From Chloroflexota bacterium (GTDB lineage Bacteria; Chloroflexota; Limnocylindria; Limnocylindrales; CSP1-4): a stretch of DNA of 7,585 nt. The notes under the pieces were generated by a model. It was not told where the DNA came from, did no database searches, and saw only the letters and a program-made list of their open reading frames with translations. Location of the stretch: positions 1 through 7,585 of the forward strand of contig JAKAMV010000482.1 of NCBI GenBank assembly GCA_021812735.1, given 5' to 3'. How positions within the stretch are numbered: position 1 is the stretch's first letter; every line of letters starts with the position of its first letter. A program made the translations under genes and the position numbers. This document shows, one piece after another, positions 3 to 7,585 of this stretch.

Positions 3-845
3 GACGCGTACCGCGAGGGCATCGCCGCGCCCGACGCCGAGTGTCTCGTCTGCGGCAGCACCGACGTCGCCAAGAGCGGCCGTCGGCTGATGCCGATGTT
101 CGGGTTCGTCGGCGAGAGCGCGAGCACGCAGGTCGGCGACGCGCCGATCCTGCGCCGGTCCTCGATCCGGTCCTGGTTCGGCGACTACGACACCGAGGGC
201 AGGGAGCGACCGTTCGGCCCGCTCGACGGCGTCGAGGCCGCCATGGCCGACGGCCGGACGAGCCGCCAGGGCCGCATCGTGATCATGAACCAGGGCCCGG
301 GCGGCCGCGGCTTCGGGATCTGCTCGACCTGCGGCCGCGGCACCCCGCGCCCGGCCAAGCCCGCCAAGAAGGAGAAGCCCCACGCCAACCTGTGGAACGG
401 GCGCGAGTGCAAGGGCGGCCTCCGGACCTACCAACTCGGCTACGACCTGCTGACCGACGTGTTCGAGCTCCGGCTGGCCGGGCCGCGGCGGGGCGTCGAG
501 GCGCTGCGCAGCCTTCTGTACGCCCTGCTCGAGGGCGCGGGCGCGCTCGGGATCAAGCGCGACGAGGTCGACGGCACGCTGCACTCCCACGCGGTCGAGG
601 CGAGCCCGTCGCTGATCTTCTACGACACGGTGCCCGGCGGGGCGGGCCACGCCCGCCGGATCGCGAGGGCCCTGCCCGAGGTGGTCCGCGCCGCCCGCGC
701 GCGGGTGGACGCCTGCACCTGCGGGCTCGAGACCTCGTGCTACGGGTGCCTCCGCTCGTACTCCAACCAGATTTTCCACGACGCACTCTCGCGGGGCGAG
801 GCGCAGGCCCTCCTGGTGGCCCTGGAGGCCGGCCTCCTACGATGA
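3..845 (+). CDS. DEAD/DEAH-type helicase, C-terminal DUF1998 part (5' end outside window); DruE-like candidate
   Basis: The reading frame is open from the left edge, so this is the last 280 codons of a longer gene; the ATG codons at 90 and 96 are internal. Two cysteine pairs are visible, CLVC at fragment residues 14-17 and CSTC at 107-110, with another Cys at 136. They are followed by a typical DUF1998 core: TDVFELRL, SLLYALLEGA, DGTLHSHAVE, FYDTVPGGAGHARR, then the cysteine cluster CTCGLETSCYGCLRSY (Cys at fragment 238, 240, 246, 249) and NQIFHDALSRGEA. In characterised DUF1998 helicases such as MrfA this four-Cys cluster binds zinc. The superfamily 2 helicase motifs would lie upstream. DUF1998 also occurs in DrmB (DISARM) and DruE (Druantia); the partner gene favours a Druantia-like setting, but that is inference. 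The stop overlaps the next start as ATGA, implying one operon and coupled translation. The domain call is firm, the system name is not. Confidence 0.88.
   Translation, partial: DAYREGIAAPDAECLVCGSTDVAKSGRRLMPMFGFVGESASTQVGDAPILRRSSIRSWFGDYDTEGRERPFGPLDGVEAAMADGRTSRQGRIVIMNQGPGGRGFGICSTCGRGTPRPAKPAKKEKPHANLWNGRECKGGLRTYQLGYDLLTDVFELRLAGPRRGVEALRSLLYALLEGAGALGIKRDEVDGTLHSHAVEASPSLIFYDTVPGGAGHARRIARALPEVVRAARARVDACTCGLETSCYGCLRSYSNQIFHDALSRGEAQALLVALEAGLLR
824..837 (+). promoter_or_regulatory. Shine-Dalgarno inside a perfect palindrome, before the 1002-aa gene
   Basis: GGAGG at 824-828 is the best ribosome site for the ATG at 842, 13 bases away, which is somewhat long. It is half of a perfect 14-base palindrome, ggaggccggcctcc, so the mRNA can fold into a 5-bp stem (GGAGG with CCTCC) around a CCGG loop that hides the site. 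With the ATGA overlap this suggests that translation of the downstream gene depends on ribosomes finishing the helicase. The stretch also codes for LEAGLL, so the palindrome could be a by-product of high-GC codon use. Confidence 0.4.
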
Positions 846-3800
846 CCGGCGTCGAGGGCAGGGCGGCCGCGGACGACCTCGAGGCCGAGGTCCGCGAACG
901 GCTCCGCGGCCACCGGCTCGTGTGCGAGGTGGACTGGGAGCCCGGGATCCTTCAGGAGATCAAGCCCGCGGTCTACCTCGACTGGTACTGCGAGCAGTCG
1001 GGCCTCATGGGGTACGGCCGGCACCCGGCGCTCCTCGTGCTTTACCTCGTGCTGACCGGGCGGGAGGCGTACGACGGCGAGTTCTGGCCGCACACGATCA
1101 TGGGCGCGGAGGGCCGAGTCCTCGCCGGGCGCTACCTCGAGGCCTCCCTCCGGCGTCTGAGCCTCGAGCGGTTCCCGCAGTTCGCGGCCGAGCGGGCCCT
1201 GCGGTTCGTCGCCCCGGTCCTCGCGCACGGCGGCATCCCGCAGGCGTACGTCCTGCCCTTCCTGCGCGACGTGATGCTGCCGGCGATGGCCCGCGGCGAG
1301 GGCGGGACCGGGGCCGACCACATCGCGCGCTGGCGGCACCGGCGGCCGGCCGGTATGCCGCAGCCGGTGCGGCGCTACCTGCTCTACGGGGGCGAGACCG
1401 CGACCGACTTCCTCGACCGGTGCCTCGACCTGCCGCGGATCGGCCAGGACGCGCTCCGGGCGGAGCCCGCCGCGGCCGGGCTGCCCCGGAACGTCGTGGA
1501 GGCGTTCCTCGCGCTCCCGTCGCAGGCGATCGCGCCGGTGCTGCGCGTCCCTGCGCCGTCGGTCCGGATCGACGTCTGGTCGCGCCGCGGTCCCGAGCTC
1601 GTGCTGCCGGCGGTGGGCCGCGACCTCGCCGCGAACCTCGTCTGGACGGTCGAGGACGGTGCCGGCCGCCGCCGCGAGGCCGCCCTGCCGCACCGCGAGA
1701 CGGTGGTCCCGCTGTCCCCGGCCGGCGGCTGGGATGCGACCGCGAGGACGGGCGGCCACACCCTGCGCCACACCTTCGAGTGCTTCGCCGAGAGCCCGGT
1801 CGTGTGCTTCGACGGCGAGGGGCGCTACGTCGCGGACACGGGCTCGCTGCGCGCCGACCAGATCTGGGCACTCATGCCGGCCGGGGTCAGCCTCGCCCGG
1901 TCGGACGGCGACGGCGTCCAGCACGCGCTCGCCGCGACCGACGAGGGCGAGCGCCCAGTCGGGCACTGGGCGGGCCACAGGCTCGAGCGCTTCGACCTCG
2001 CGGGCGTGGAGCTGCTCCTGGTGTGCCGGGGCGGCGCGGTCGAGTCCCGCATCCCCGTGTACCGGCCGGGCGCGGGTGCCGAGGTCGTCGGCGTGCCGGT
2101 GGCAGACGTGCGCTCGATCGACGACCTCCCGGTGTACGACGCGATTCCCTCGCTGTCGCTGCCGCCGTGGGGCACCTGGCAGGTCGCGCTCGTCGGCGAG
2201 GACGACGCCGGCGTGTGGTCCGTCACCCCGAGGAACGACGCGCGCGAGACGCTCGACCTCGACACGGGGAGGCCGCCGTTCGGCCGCTACGAGGTCATCG
2301 CCCGCGGCCCGCGGCTCGGCCGCGACCTGCGGGCGGCGTTCGCGGTGGTCCCCGGCCTGCGCGTCGAGGTCCCGGAGGAGCCGCTCGCGACCGGCGAGAC
2401 GGAGGCCGCGGTGGCCGCCGCGGCGGCCCCGGGCATCGGGCTCGCCGGGAGGCCCGCCGGCGAGCCGGTGTCCCTGATGATCGACGCCGAGGCCGGCGTA
2501 CAGGAGCTCTGGGCGTGGCTGGGCCACCGCAAGACGAGCCTGCTCGTCCGGGTCCGGGTCCTGCGCTGGGGCTTCCGCCGGGCCGACGGGTCGCTCGACC
2601 TGGGGCGCGCGCCGCTTCCCCTCGACCCAGAGCGCGTCGGGCTCGAGGACGTCGCGCTCGTCGTGACCGGCCGCCCGGGCCGGGGCGTGCGGTTCCACCT
2701 CGAGGGCGACGGCGAGCGGCTCGCCGACGAGGCCCGCCCGATCACCGCGGACGGCCAGTCCACGCTTCCGCTCATGGTGCTCCGGGAGACCATCCGGGAG
2801 CACCGCGACCGACGCCTCGCGCTGGGCCTCGAGACCGGCGGCCTGCTCGCCCGGGCCGCGGCGTACGAGCCCCCGCCGCCGCCAGTGCCGCCGCGCCCCC
2901 GCCCCGGGGAGTTCGTCCGGGCGCGCGTCGTCGGTCCGGACCGCGCCGGCCTGGCGGTGGCGGGCCCCGGCTGGCAGGGCCTCGTCCGGCGGTTCCGCCT
3001 GGTCGGCCAGCCCGAGGACTACGCGCCGGGCTCAGAGGTGGCCGGGTGGGTCGAGCGCGACGACGGGACGCTGCTCATCGACCTGCGGCCGTTCGACCCC
3101 GGCCGCTTCCGGGTCGGCATGACCGTGCGCGGCCGCGTCGTCAACGCGTCTGACCGCGGCGTCGTGCTCGACCTCGGCGGCACGGACGGCCGGGTCATGG
3201 CCGACCGGCTGCCCGCCGGTCGCGCGCCGACCTCGTACCGGATGGGCGACGAGGTCGAGGCCCGAGTGATCGACGTCCAGCAGCACGAGCGCTGGTTCAA
3301 GCTCGCCGTCGCCCCGTTCGACACGCGCGGCCTCCAGGCGGGCGAGGTGGTCGAGGCGCGGGTCGCGCGGACGACGCACCACGCGGCCTTCCTCGACGTC
3401 CGCGGGCTCGTCGGGTTCGTGCCCGAGGACGAGTTCGGCCCGCGCCCCCCGGCCACCGGCGAGACGGTGAGGGCGTGGGTCGTCCGGCTCGACACGCGGC
3501 GCGAGAGCGTGGTGTGCTCGCTGCGGCCATTCGACGCGGGCGGCCTGTCGGTCGGCAGCGAGTGCCAGGCGCTCGTGACCTCCGCCGGGCCCGCCCAAGT
3601 CGCGGTCGACCTGCCGGGCGGGCTGCGGGGGACCATCACCGAGCGGGGCCTGCCGCCGCACCTCGTCGGGTCCGCCGACCGCCACCTCCGTCCCGGGACG
3701 CGGATCCCGGTGATGATCCGCGACGTCAACCCGCGGACGCGCTGGATCGAGTGCGCCTACCGCCCGGCAGAGTACGCGTTCGGCGACGATGATGGCCCCG

Positions 3801-3850
3801 CCTCGTCGCCGTTCGCGGACATCCAGCTGAAGTTGGATGCGCGACGTTGA
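842..3850 (+). CDS. 1002-aa defence-island protein: DruH/STY4851-like N-terminal region plus four C-terminal S1-like repeats
   Basis: The start is the ATG overlapping the helicase stop (ATGA); the frame is open back to 41 but the region before 842 is coding in another frame. Residues 1-235 are largely helical, with HPALLVLYLVL (61-71), a YDGEFWPH motif (77-84), and AHGGIP (128-133). This resembles the STY4851/ECs_5259 family (DruH of Druantia type III, also YjiT) as I remember it. Residues 235-680 look beta-rich, including GTWQVALVGEDDAGVW (444-459) and a VVPGL segment (502-506). A proline-rich linker follows (677-688). Residues 689-975 form four S1/OB-like repeats, each about 70 residues; a shared PFD occurs at 750-752, 825-827 and 896-898. 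Clearest is repeat 2: VGMTVRGRVVNASDRGVVLDLGG (758-780). S1 domains usually bind RNA or single-stranded DNA, so the tail may sense nucleic acid for the helicase partner. No signal peptide, membrane segment or nuclease motif is seen. The gene is solid, the repeat call good, the DruH link tentative. Confidence 0.85.
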   Translation: MTGVEGRAAADDLEAEVRERLRGHRLVCEVDWEPGILQEIKPAVYLDWYCEQSGLMGYGRHPALLVLYLVLTGREAYDGEFWPHTIMGAEGRVLAGRYLEASLRRLSLERFPQFAAERALRFVAPVLAHGGIPQAYVLPFLRDVMLPAMARGEGGTGADHIARWRHRRPAGMPQPVRRYLLYGGETATDFLDRCLDLPRIGQDALRAEPAAAGLPRNVVEAFLALPSQAIAPVLRVPAPSVRIDVWSRRGPELVLPAVGRDLAANLVWTVEDGAGRRREAALPHRETVVPLSPAGGWDATARTGGHTLRHTFECFAESPVVCFDGEGRYVADTGSLRADQIWALMPAGVSLARSDGDGVQHALAATDEGERPVGHWAGHRLERFDLAGVELLLVCRGGAVESRIPVYRPGAGAEVVGVPVADVRSIDDLPVYDAIPSLSLPPWGTWQVALVGEDDAGVWSVTPRNDARETLDLDTGRPPFGRYEVIARGPRLGRDLRAAFAVVPGLRVEVPEEPLATGETEAAVAAAAAPGIGLAGRPAGEPVSLMIDAEAGVQELWAWLGHRKTSLLVRVRVLRWGFRRADGSLDLGRAPLPLDPERVGLEDVALVVTGRPGRGVRFHLEGDGERLADEARPITADGQSTLPLMVLRETIREHRDRRLALGLETGGLLARAAAYEPPPPPVPPRPRPGEFVRARVVGPDRAGLAVAGPGWQGLVRRFRLVGQPEDYAPGSEVAGWVERDDGTLLIDLRPFDPGRFRVGMTVRGRVVNASDRGVVLDLGGTDGRVMADRLPAGRAPTSYRMGDEVEARVIDVQQHERWFKLAVAPFDTRGLQAGEVVEARVARTTHHAAFLDVRGLVGFVPEDEFGPRPPATGETVRAWVVRLDTRRESVVCSLRPFDAGGLSVGSECQALVTSAGPAQVAVDLPGGLRGTITERGLPPHLVGSADRHLRPGTRIPVMIRDVNPRTRWIECAYRPAEYAFGDDDGPASSPFADIQLKLDARR
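2900..3766 (+). other. Four tandem S1/OB-like repeats within the 1002-aa protein
   Basis: The encoded repeats are at about residues 687-752, 756-827, 829-898 and 901-975. Each begins with a G-x-x-V-x-A/G-x-V type first strand (GEFVRARVV, GMTVRGRVV, GEVVEARVA, GSECQALVT), continues through a glycine-rich middle with a GLV or GRV turn, and the first three end in a hydrophobic strand followed by PFD. The spacing and pattern match S1-type OB folds. The first and fourth copies are more diverged. Identification is by eye. Confidence 0.65.
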
Positions 3851-4103: not shown

Positions 4104-5066
4104 CTACGACGCACCCAACGAACCACGCGAATGCCAGTCGGTGCCGGTCGTGTCCACTTCGAGCCCGGCCGTCGCGAGCCGCTGCGCGAGGTCTTGACGA
4201 CGCTCGGTTGAGTTGTCAAGGCGGAGCACGTGCCGGCCGCCAATGTCCGAGAACGGGCGACACCTTCCGAGTTCTACGAGTACGGTGCGGTTCTCATCCC
4301 ACGCCATCGCCATGCCCGCCTCGAAGAGAACGTTGGGGCGCGCCTGGGGTGTGAGCTCTGTCTCGTGCTGTGGGTCGCCGGGCCTGCGGTAGGGCGTCCG
4401 GAGCTGCGCTTCATCGTCCGGCGTCATCAACACCAGGACGGCTTGGGCTCGGCGGAAGGCGGCGTTCAGGATGTCGCCAACGTACGGTGATGGACGCCCA
4501 GTCGCGAGGACGGCCTGCGACCACTCGATCGGCAAGAGGCCGAGCGATCGAAGGAAATCGAAGATCGCGTCACGGGCGGCTTCATTCCGACCGTGAATAA
4601 CGAACACCGCGCGTCGATCGGGCCCGGGCGACTCTCCATCACCAGGAGATCCCTCCTTCGCCGATGGCTCGGGCTGGAGGCGGCGACGGTCGCTTGCCTC
4701 AGCGAACAAACCCAGCTCGAAGATCGCCGCGTCGATGTAGCCGATTGCCGTCTCAACTCCGCCTACGAAGGCTCGCTCCCAGGCGCTTGCAGGGGTATCG
4801 GCCGTGAACATCATCAGCCCGTAGCGGTTCGATCGCATCTTGCCGGCCAGTTCGGAGTCCACGCCAAGCACACGGTTCAAGACCGCTTGGACCTTCGCCT
4901 TCCATGCCTCGCGTGCGGCCTCTCCGGCCTGGTACAACGCCATCGCGTTGATCGCTTCCTGCTTCAGCTCCTCCAATCGGGTGATTGCGATGGCTGGCTC
5001 CATGACCGGGCCTAGCATCTCCGGAGCCTCCCGTCGCCCTGGGCGAGAAGTACGCGGTTTGTTCAT
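4104..5066 (-). CDS. TIR-like (CAP12/PF10137-type) effector with helical N-terminal domain, coupled to hsdR
   Basis: This is a 320-residue, probably cytosolic protein. ATG at 5066 is chosen because it overlaps the hsdR stop (ATGA) and has GAGGTG eight bases upstream; Met17 is a weaker alternative. Residues 20-125 form a helical domain with conserved-looking Trp and Phe positions (AWKAKVQAVL 54-63, FVGGVETAI 100-108), which in this family may serve as sensor or oligomerisation region. A charged, flexible linker (126-150) leads to the TIR-like domain: AVFVIHGRN (153-161), PIEWSQA (179-185), SPYVGDIL (193-200), VLVLMTPDDEA (210-220), QARPNVLFEAGMA (241-253), TVLVELG (261-267), and a typical end GTDWHSRG. 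Related TIR domains cleave NAD+ or bind cyclic nucleotides; here activity is inferred. Asp198 sits where I align the catalytic Glu of such domains. The coupling with hsdR suggests an abortive-infection arm triggered around restriction. Its G+C is lower than in the left-hand genes. Confidence 0.88.
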   Translation of the reverse strand: MNKPRTSRPGRREAPEMLGPVMEPAIAITRLEELKQEAINAMALYQAGEAAREAWKAKVQAVLNRVLGVDSELAGKMRSNRYGLMMFTADTPASAWERAFVGGVETAIGYIDAAIFELGLFAEASDRRRLQPEPSAKEGSPGDGESPGPDRRAVFVIHGRNEAARDAIFDFLRSLGLLPIEWSQAVLATGRPSPYVGDILNAAFRRAQAVLVLMTPDDEAQLRTPYRRPGDPQHETELTPQARPNVLFEAGMAMAWDENRTVLVELGRCRPFSDIGGRHVLRLDNSTERRQDLAQRLATAGLEVDTTGTDWHSRGSLGAS

Positions 5067-7585
5067 GCCGGCGGCACCTCAGCGGCGCGAGCGCGCTCGA
5101 ACACACGACGGAGGTAGTGGTCCAACACGACGCCTTGGAACTCGTGGTCGTCGAGGATCCGCTGGAAGATGCCCTCGTTGTCGTCCATCCGGCGAACGAT
5201 CGTCTTCATGAACGTGTCCGCGAACACGAGCTTGAAGTTCTCGAGGCTGTTGGCCCGCGCCTGAGCAGACAGGTCGTCGTCGGCGGCCCAGCCCTCCTCG
5301 AACTGGTCGAAGAGCAGCTGATCGCCGAGCGTTAGCTGGAGACCGAAGCGCTCGTTGAGCACCTTGATGATCGCGGACAGGTGCTCCTTCTCCTCCAGGC
5401 CAGCCGGGCCGCGGCCGTCGTAGATGGCCTTGATCTCGGCCACCCCGGGTTCGAGCTCGAGCGCGCCCTCGCTCGTCTTGGCCTGGCGCAGGTGGGTGAG
5501 GACCACCTCGGACCCGAGGTCGATCCCCCCGCTGCGGTCCGTCGGCAGCAGCGCCTCGCACGCGCGCGACGTGAGGTACAGCGCCTCGAGCGAGACGTCG
5601 CCGAGGTCGACCACCTGCGAGAGGAACGAGTACGCCCTAACGAACTGGTCGAGCAGGCCCCGGACCTCGTCCTGGCCGTCACCGTCGAGCGCCTTGAACC
5701 GCGCGAGCGCCGGCGCGAGCAGCGCGTAGACCTGGCCGTGGGTGCCGGCCCGGCCCGTCCGGTCGGCCAGGATCGCCGCCACCGCGAGCACCTCGGACTG
5801 GTCGAGTACCTGGACAGCGAGGAGGCGCGATGCGAGGTCGTGGAGCAGGTTCGGGTCGGTCGGGACCGCGAGCGTGGTCTCGTACCAGGGCTTGAACGCT
5901 TCGACGATGTCCTCGGCGCGGTTGCGGAAGTCGAGGACGAACGTGTCCTCCTTTTCGGGATGCGTCCGGTTGAGCCGCGACAGCGTTTGGACAGCTGCAA
6001 GCCCGACCAGCGTCTTGTCCACGAACATCGTGTGCAAGAGGGGCTGGTCGTAGCCGGTCTGGAACTTCTCGGCGACGATCAGCACGCCGAACTCGGGGCT
6101 CCCGAAGCGGGTCGCCGTCTGGCTCTCGGGGAACGCGTTCATGCCCGACTCGGTGAACGGAAGCCCGTGGTCGTCGACGGTCCCTGAGAAGGCGACCAGC
6201 GCCTTCGTGTCCGTGTAACCCCTGTCCTTTATGTACTGGTCAATCGCCTGCTTGTAGCGTACTGCGTGGAGGCGTGACGAGGTCACGACCATGGCCTTGC
6301 CCTTGCCCCCGACCTTCTTGCGCGTGTGCTCCCGGAAGTGCTCGACGACGATCTCGGCCTTCTGGGCGAGGTTGTGGGGGTGGAGGGCGACGAACCGGGC
6401 GATCGCCCGGCGCGCCTTCCGGGTGTCGTACTCGGGGTCCTCGGTGACCGTCTTCTCGACCCGCCAGTAGGTCGCGTACGTCGCGTAGAACCGCAGGACA
6501 TCGAGGATGAAGCCCTCCTCGATCGCCTGACGCATCGAGTAGAGGTGGAAGGGCGCGTACCTTCCCTCCTCCGTGGGCCGGCCGAACAGCTCGAGGGTGC
6601 GGGCCTTCGGCGTCGCCGTGAAGGCGAAGAACGAGAGGTTCGGCTGGCGCGCCCGGGCCGCGATCGCGGCGGCGAGCGTGTCTTGGGCGTCTGGGGGCGC
6701 GCTGGCGTCCGTTGTCTCCGCGAGTGCGAGCTGCGCTTCCTCCGATGTCGCCCCGAGCGCCGCCTTGAGATCTTTGGCCGCCTCGCCCGTCTGGGACGAG
6801 TGCGCCTCGTCAACGATGACGGCGAACCGGCGCGCGCCGAGGCCTTCGACCTTGCCTAGCACGAACGGGAACTTCTGGAGCGTCGTGATCACAATCCGCG
6901 CCCGCTCGCCCGTGAGTGCCGCCGCGAGCTGTGCGCTGTCCTGGTCGATCCGCGCGACAACGCCGGTCTGATGCTCGAACTGGTAGATCGTTTCCTGGAG
7001 CTGGCGGTCGAGGATGACCCGGTCGGTGATCACGACGACCTTGTCGAACACCGGGGCGTCATCAGCGCCGTGGAGGGACATCAGCCGGTGGGCGAGCCAG
7101 GCGATCGTATTGGACTTGCCGGAGCCCGCGCTGTGCTGGACAAGGTAACGCTGGCCCGCACCCTCGGCGCGTGCCGTGGCCTCCATGCGCCGGACAGCGT
7201 CCCACTGGTGGTAGCGCGGGAAGATGGTGGTCCCGTTGCGGAGCTGCGCTGCCTTCGTCGTCCCCGGTCCGGGCTCGACGTGGACGAACCGACCAAGCAG
7301 GTCGAGCCAGGCGTCGCGCGCCCAGACTTCCTCCCACAAGTACGCGGTGGCGTGACCCGCGGGGTTGTCGGGGTTGCCCGCGCCGCCACTTCGACCTCGG
7401 TTGAAGGGCAGGAAGCGGGTCGTCGCGCTCGCGAGCCGAGTCGTCATGAGCACGACCTGGGGATCGACCGCGAAGTGGACGACGGCGCGTCGGCCCAGGG
7501 TCACGTTCGCGGGATCGCGGTCGGCTCGGTACTGCGCCACCGCCTGGCTCACGTCCTGATGCGTCAGCGGATTCTTGAGCTCGGC
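5063..7585 (-). CDS. hsdR: Type I restriction enzyme, R (endonuclease/translocase) subunit, 5' end outside window
   Basis: 840 codons are present and the frame is still open at the right edge; the GTG at 7552 is internal. The first visible residues, AELKNP, hold the Glu (7580-7582) and Lys (7574-7576) of the PD-(D/E)xK nuclease site, followed by the family signatures QYRADRDP, HFAVD and TTRFLPFNRG...GAGNP. Motor motifs follow in order: Walker A SAGSGKS (Lys at 7115-7117), VITDR, the DEAH box (6800-6811), FAFTATPK, FQTGYDQPLLHTMFVDK and QTLSRLNRTHPEK. The C-terminal part (about 5063-5880) is the usual helical region that docks on the methyltransferase core. HsdR cuts unmethylated foreign DNA far from its recognition site after ATP-driven translocation, in complex with HsdM2HsdS, whose genes should lie upstream (beyond 7585). 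No motif is broken, so it looks functional. Only roughly the first 150-200 residues are missing, judging by the usual position of ELK. Confidence 0.96.
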   Translation of the reverse strand, partial: AELKNPLTHQDVSQAVAQYRADRDPANVTLGRRAVVHFAVDPQVVLMTTRLASATTRFLPFNRGRSGGAGNPDNPAGHATAYLWEEVWARDAWLDLLGRFVHVEPGPGTTKAAQLRNGTTIFPRYHQWDAVRRMEATARAEGAGQRYLVQHSAGSGKSNTIAWLAHRLMSLHGADDAPVFDKVVVITDRVILDRQLQETIYQFEHQTGVVARIDQDSAQLAAALTGERARIVITTLQKFPFVLGKVEGLGARRFAVIVDEAHSSQTGEAAKDLKAALGATSEEAQLALAETTDASAPPDAQDTLAAAIAARARQPNLSFFAFTATPKARTLELFGRPTEEGRYAPFHLYSMRQAIEEGFILDVLRFYATYATYWRVEKTVTEDPEYDTRKARRAIARFVALHPHNLAQKAEIVVEHFREHTRKKVGGKGKAMVVTSSRLHAVRYKQAIDQYIKDRGYTDTKALVAFSGTVDDHGLPFTESGMNAFPESQTATRFGSPEFGVLIVAEKFQTGYDQPLLHTMFVDKTLVGLAAVQTLSRLNRTHPEKEDTFVLDFRNRAEDIVEAFKPWYETTLAVPTDPNLLHDLASRLLAVQVLDQSEVLAVAAILADRTGRAGTHGQVYALLAPALARFKALDGDGQDEVRGLLDQFVRAYSFLSQVVDLGDVSLEALYLTSRACEALLPTDRSGGIDLGSEVVLTHLRQAKTSEGALELEPGVAEIKAIYDGRGPAGLEEKEHLSAIIKVLNERFGLQLTLGDQLLFDQFEEGWAADDDLSAQARANSLENFKLVFADTFMKTIVRRMDDNEGIFQRILDDHEFQGVVLDHYLRRVFERARAAEVPPA
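5075..5080 (-). promoter_or_regulatory. Ribosome binding site of the TIR gene, inside the hsdR 3' end
   Basis: On the minus strand GAGGTG lies eight bases before the ATG at 5066, within the last codons of hsdR. It fixes the TIR start and supports coupled translation across the ATGA overlap. Confidence 0.55.

Follow-up and report, generated by a model that had tools for sequence, protein, structure and literature searches.

A DruE-type helicase and an S1-tailed partner with a predicted DruH-type core: a probable new variant of Druantia III-like systems in Chloroflexota

What kind of system is formed by a DUF1998 helicase and the 1002-residue protein that directly follows it in a Chloroflexota bacterium was the question raised by the locus analysed here, a stretch of 7,585 nucleotides (contig JAKAMV010000482.1, assembly GCA_021812735.1) that is called the window as a whole. 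The first-pass annotation, made from the letters alone, had described the protein as an N-terminal region resembling DruH/STY4851, a beta-rich middle, a proline linker and four S1/OB-like repeats, and had suggested that the pair may mark a Druantia-related subtype. The following features were located, the gene starts corresponding to the first start codon of the frame unless placed by overlap or alignment; no tRNA was found in the window.

3..845, plus strand: DruE-type (YprA family) helicase, C-terminal 280 aa, its 5′ end outside the window
842..845, plus strand: ATGA in which the stop of the helicase and the start of the partner overlap, the same 4-nt overlap occurring in loci L001 and L042
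842..3850, plus strand: P0001, 1002-aa partner with a predicted DruH-like core and an S1 tail
863..1546, plus strand: helical N-terminal domain, residues 8-235 (secondary structure of models, alignments)
1547..2875, plus strand: beta-rich region made of consecutive Ig/FnIII-like sandwich domains, residues 236-678
2870..2905, plus strand: proline-rich linker, residues 677-688 (sequence)
2906..3085, plus strand: S1/OB repeat 1, residues 689-748 (model; multi-domain structure matches)
3101..3325, plus strand: S1/OB repeat 2, residues 754-828 (best Pfam S1 match)
3332..3535, plus strand: S1/OB repeat 3, residues 831-898 (model; multi-domain structure matches)
3548..3772, plus strand: S1/OB repeat 4, residues 903-977 (RRP5-type S1 match)
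4104-5066, minus strand: TIR protein of the CAP12/Pycsar family (PF10137, 6e-28; PADLOC PDC-S35, 4e-28)
5063-7585, minus strand: HsdR-type subunit, truncated at the edge of the window (PF18766, 4e-26; TIGR00348, 1e-45, below the cut-off of that model)

The helicase fragment carried an MZB/DUF1998 Zn-binding domain at residues 181-250 (E 7e-15) and reached its stop 30 aa past it, and no nuclease domain was recognised in the fragment. It matched the DruE1 model of PADLOC (1e-29) and was 87% identical, over 279 columns, to the helicase of L001, a Chloroflexi MAG. The architecture ascribed to P0001 was confirmed, since the helical N-terminus, the Ig-like chain, the proline linker and the S1/OB tail were all recovered behind the ATGA overlap with the helicase, in structure models of moderate confidence built on shallow alignments; the N-terminal domain carried the RFVAP-I-LAHGGIP stretch conserved in the alignments of the family. 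On the minus strand, the start of the TIR gene overlapped the end of the HsdR-type gene by 4 nt, and the two may form an operon of R-M and TIR genes oriented towards the helicase pair.

The expectation of four tandem S1/OB folds at the C-terminus held as well, with PF00575 reaching 60 bits in P0001 against a Pfam cut-off of 22, in agreement with the model and with PDB matches. One of these, 9gut_B, was aligned to residues 682-973 with an rmsd of 16.5, and it therefore matched domain by domain and not as one body. The aromatic and histidine sites to which RNA binding by canonical S1 domains is generally attributed were mostly replaced in the repeats of the window, so that nucleic-acid binding by this tail is doubtful; at these sites, three repeats of locus L041 retained the canonical pattern. 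The suggestion that the tail would recognise phage RNA or single-stranded intermediates is, judging from its sequence, not supported so far.

Nine homologues of P0001 were found among 5.8 billion proteins searched, five of them at 72-86% identity and 99-100% coverage, a sixth at 76% identity over 53% of P0001, and the remaining three at 35-38% identity, one of these over 66%; a profile of eight sequences recovered no further homologues beyond the nine. In L001, the source of one homologue, a full 1609-aa helicase (P0011) was placed directly upstream with a 4-nt overlap. It scored 603 bits with DruE1 and 602 bits with DruE3, and it matched PF00270, PF00271 and PF09369; with its DEAD, Helicase_C and MZB domains, it is by sequence a DruE-type helicase. 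Apart from the window and E. coli, the genomes then sampled belonged to a single phylum, taken as Chloroflexota on the basis of L001. Elsewhere in the phylum, proteins matched the A1 profile only over residues ~8-510, and a core profile (A3) detected 15 loci in 14 of 400 genomes (16 rows, a single G383 protein accounting for two). Within the class of G001, the core was found in 4 of 177 genomes, which added two loci (in G405 and G448) and a 53-bit N-terminal core fragment, G001:C157; in the class of G365, it was found in 3 of 47 genomes, all already known from the previous scan, with no new loci.

The linkage of the S1 protein to a DUF1998 helicase, which the first reading had presumed, was borne out in this sample. 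In 15 of 17 loci (13/15 from the 400 genomes and 2/2 from the 177), the core gene had a DruE-type helicase as its immediate same-strand neighbour, and the two exceptions, G001:C76 and G383:C19, ran off their contigs. The C157 fragment, in which one NERD-UvrD gene separated the core fragment from the DruE-type helicase, was counted apart. Conversely, among the 18 strongest helicase places, a core gene was adjacent in 13, one was C157 and four were without it. Moreover, the distances between partner cores followed those between helicases (r 0.93, 0/5000 permutations, 13 pairs), and the correlation was r 0.91 with E. coli added.

Some individual loci presented particular configurations. The helicase beside the core gene of L049 (533-5208) was split into two overlapping ORFs of 566 and 992 aa, being either broken or truly two genes. 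The core protein of L070 (G383 C19), of at least 1311 aa, filled its whole small contig and displayed, by eye, a long coiled-coil-like insertion within the core. In G001, the N-terminal fragment of a second S1-type partner (L010, 1-7014) was divergent from the NERD-UvrD (PADLOC RTasNERD-Hel, 2e-64) and DruE-type helicase genes, and another contig contained a long C-terminal part in which five S1 stretches passed (L041, 1683-6194), these parts possibly being the two ends of one gene. Proteins of 766-816 aa preceded other DruE-like helicases in L107 (5774-8224), L108 (4891-7191) and L113 (5338-7767); they showed Cys/His finger-like ends by eye, matched nothing in PADLOC or Pfam, and had a beta part weakly like the core (probability 83, 310 columns). 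In L110, the 1343-aa neighbour of the helicase had no core match.

Whether the partner is related to DruH was addressed with models and profiles. No DruH/YjiT model of PADLOC, Pfam or NCBIfam recognised P0001, P0004 and P0008 had no DruH match in PADLOC up to E 1, and the PADLOC DruH models matched none of 14 related core proteins; as a control, E. coli DruH matched ten DruH3 models. Kinship was detected at the profile-profile level, in which the pooled core (P0001 residues 1-680 and relatives) was aligned over 706 colinear columns to a profile of 41 DruH sequences, comprising that of E. coli and its homologues, with probability 96.7, E 3e-10 and score 100, the controls giving at most 22.1 in 25 column shuffles and 19.9 with the reversed alignment. 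The helical N-terminus of the pooled family remotely matched that of DruH (probability 84). The S1-type core alone reached a probability of only 16 and a score of 39 against DruH; it was aligned to the sister cores over 644-649 columns with probability 100. The kinship to DruH is drawn mainly from the one profile comparison made with the pooled core, which includes sigma-type and other sister proteins. The DruH alignment stopped at column 814 of 1101, P0001 consisting of S1 repeats past residue 688, and nothing corresponding to the C-terminal region of DruH, in which R1064 and K1067 contact ATP, was detected. The DruH chain 9tud was not retrieved up to E 10 by the core profile among PDB sequences, nor was it among the matches given by the Foldseek/VIA structure comparison, whose library may not contain it. 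Altogether, the core (residues 1-680) is a predicted remote homologue of DruH. The DruH/STY4851 likeness claimed for the N-terminus stood as far as kinship is concerned, and had to be revised in that it is remote and extends over the whole core, not only residues 1-235.

Behind this core, the C-terminus differed by clade, being formed by S1 repeats, by sigma-70 (seven loci) or by a Cys/His-rich end (three loci, by eye). Four S1 repeats were present in the window, L001, L142 and L143, about two in L042, and five PF00575 stretches passed in L041, whose N-terminus was cut. The sigma type comprised L043-L047, L050 and L068. Pfam recognised sigma regions 1.2, 2, 3 and 4 in four of the five tails scanned (L044, L045, L046 and L068) and regions 1.2, 2 and 3 in the frame-broken L047, and the tails of L043 and L050 were identified by the PADLOC MzaA model and alignment, that model matching 7/7 sigma tails (E 1e-38 to 2e-58). 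Compared with the host sigmas L116 and L121, all seven tails kept the region 2 stretch FSTYATWW, and six, L047 being the exception, kept the TRER.RQIE helix of region 4; the L044 tail was 51% identical to the best other sigma of its host. A DruE-type helicase was found directly downstream of the sigma-tailed core genes. The frame of L047 (8886-14036) was lost after sigma region 3 begins, leading to an out-of-frame extension, and in the near-identical L050 the sigma part read through to the end. The Cys/His-rich ends of L048, L051 and L069, recognised by eye, had no Pfam match, and no tail was recognised in L049. Thus, the tail was observed, outside the window, to be an exchangeable module in which sigma-70 is an alternative to S1. 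As domain types, S1 and sigma-70 both bind nucleic acid or its machinery.

Gene order separated the S1 type from the others. The helicase came first in all five readable S1-type pairs, with a 4-nt overlap at three junctions and gaps of 4 and 16 nt at two, whereas the partner came first in 11/11 pairs with other tail types, and the proposal that helicase-first order marks a distinct subtype was thereby upheld (5/5 against 0/11). The order druH then druE, given in the first-pass annotation for Druantia III, was right for E. coli ATCC 8739, in which druH precedes druE. In a quick maximum-likelihood tree of 25 helicases, with L142 and L143 left out, the S1 helicases (window, L001, L042 and L010) formed one clade and the seven sigma rows another, each with SH-aLRT 100, the three rows of the Cys/His type required two changes, and a group uniting all 15 helicases accompanied by a core gene or core fragment received support of 92. 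E. coli DruE and ARMADA were on long branches, which makes their position in the tree unsure.

Walker A was present in 16/16 helicases and DEAH in 15, the exception being the split helicase of L049. Only 0-16 residues were left after the helicase match in 15 of the 16, the sixteenth, L051, being cut (8 residues were left when it was read in L074); E. coli DruE extends nearly 390 residues beyond the match. These helicases are thus without the C-terminal extension that carries the PLD nuclease in E. coli DruE, and, since they end soon after the match, neither gene of the pair has a recognised nuclease. Most members of the Druantia III-like branch are described without a nuclease in the available part of PMC12458937.

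Regarding the neighbourhood, R-M genes were found at most 3 kb from the pair in the three S1-type loci that were domain-scanned, namely an HsdR in the window and in L042 and an ISP-type methylase at L001. L142 and L143 contained no relatives of the window HsdR/TIR, of the L042 HsdR or of the L001 methylase. A frame upstream of the pair in L143 (3-1637) resembled a DNA methyltransferase by a motif seen by eye. BrxHII/PglX, TPR-CSD and TBP were not recognised in the two window neighbours or in the ten ORFs beside L001 and L042.

It is considered very probable that the pair is a Druantia III-like variant with a DruH-type core. For the family as delimited computationally, with its linkage, co-divergence, modular tails and short helicase C-terminus, the best overall explanation, for which we see about even prospects, would be a defence pair with the core as sensor, the tail as tether and the helicase as effector. 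The helical and Ig-like core would recognise a phage product and switch on the helicase, as proposed for DruH, and the S1 tail, for which a docking role is assumed tentatively, would anchor the complex to nucleic acid or to the machinery of gene expression. The docked helicase, of a type that in E. coli DruE loads on 3′ single-stranded tails, could then act where phage DNA is replicated and expressed, and would stop the phage by unwinding or blocking, or by handing over to other nucleases encoded in the island. No antiphage assay of a pair with either kind of tail is known to us.

The tail could otherwise be an integrated decoy that mimics the machinery seized by phages, ribosomal protein S1 in one clade and primary sigma-70 in the other, so that a phage takeover protein binding the mimic would spring the sensor and activate the helicase. 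Such a role would suit two recognised tails that are both copies of central gene-expression parts, and the sigma tails in particular, with all four regions in four of the five scanned, FSTYATWW kept in 7/7 and the region 4 helix in 6/7, and 51% identity to a host sigma in L044. A decoy should, however, stay near its host model, and the window S1 repeats diverge within the family about as fast as the beta core (20-42% against 31-38% identity to P0008, P0009 or L042) and have degenerate residues where S1 domains normally bind; with no phage partner known and with Cys/His-tailed members that do not fit, a decoy seems unlikely. The same degenerate S1 surface would favour a structural adaptor, in which the OB repeats scaffold the helicase or oligomerise the sensor and bind no nucleic acid, as would a tail length ranging from about two to at least five repeats and the co-divergence of core and helicase. 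This adaptor role appears improbable in view of the canonical pattern kept in three L041 repeats and of the sigma-70 at the C-terminus of the sister proteins, a module that binds nucleic acid and RNA polymerase.

A function outside defence, in which a helicase and an RNA-binding or transcription partner would serve host DNA repair or gene expression, must also be weighed, considering that S1 and sigma-70 are housekeeping domains and that YprA-family helicases include DNA-repair members, as stated in the accessible text of PMC12458937. Against it stand the patchy occurrence (14/400 and 4/177 genomes), the R-M and TIR neighbours, a helicase closest to DruE models and a core of predicted DruH type, and a host role of this kind is regarded as very unlikely.

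Returning to the preferred reading of a sensor-tether-helicase defence pair, a broader proposal can be formulated, which we put forward as speculative and rather less than likely: in one branch of DruE systems, a DruH-like sensor would bear either an S1/OB array or a complete sigma-70, copies of host gene-expression parts interchanged from one clade to another, tying immunity to phage use or takeover of translation and transcription. If true, the gene-expression copy would act as bait, or as a tether by which the helicase is loaded on phage DNA under expression. The way in which Druantia senses infection is still under study, with DruH as the proposed sensor, and the swap of the tail among S1, sigma-70 and another module would constitute a natural experiment in which the core that senses can be told apart from the part that targets or acts as effector. 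Since these DruE-type systems have no recognised nuclease and partners below detection, Druantia-like defence is likely undercounted in Chloroflexota.

Several known systems share parts of this configuration. Ribosomal protein bS1 and other S1-repeat proteins (PF00575) have in common with P0001 the tandem S1/OB fold, but in P0001 the repeats are fused to a DruH-like core and the canonical RNA-binding aromatics are mostly replaced. In the Mza system, MzaA is a sigma factor according to the available part of PMC9523054, and its model matches the sigma-type sister tails, although any sigma-70 may match that model; the window protein, by contrast, has no sigma part. TALON and ARMADA, as described in PMC12458937, have YprA-type helicases related to that of the window, TALON being largely from Chloroflexota and encoding a TPR-cold-shock-domain protein. 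The window pair differs from both in its DruH-like partner, and BrxHII/PglX, TPR-CSD and TBP were not recognised among the scanned neighbours.

The closest comparison is with Druantia III (DruH-DruE; PADLOC DruH3/DruE3) and its relatives. As far as the available texts of PMC13192584 and PMC13316683 go, Druantia III likewise consists of two genes and has a DruE-type helicase with MZB. Its partner likewise has a helical N-terminus and Ig-like domains, with remote homology over ~700 columns, and R-M genes likewise lie nearby. A strong co-divergence of both proteins, with congruent DruE and DruH trees, is described in PMC13192584. The same text proposes DruH as a phage-protein sensor with dimer-dependent nuclease activity and presents DruE as a helicase that loads on 3′ tails and carries PLD domains at its C-terminus; the Druantia III pair of mycobacteria is activated by a minor tail protein (PMC13316683). 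The window pair differs from Druantia III in having the helicase first and not druH first, S1 repeats in place of the DruH C-terminal part, a helicase type lacking the PLD-bearing C-terminal part of E. coli DruE, and a partner below detection by the DruH models used. The Druantia III-like branch, considered together with the type III-B representative GIH50614.1, likewise has a YprA helicase, most often without a nuclease domain; S1 or sigma-70 partner tails and the helicase-first order are not mentioned in the available part of PMC12458937, with which the comparison was made by description only. Within the open-licence PMC literature, to which the search was confined, no report of Druantia/DruH or DUF1998 with S1 or sigma-70 tails was found among the titles listed. 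The helicase and its S1-tailed, predicted DruH-like partner very probably represent a new variant of Druantia III-like systems.
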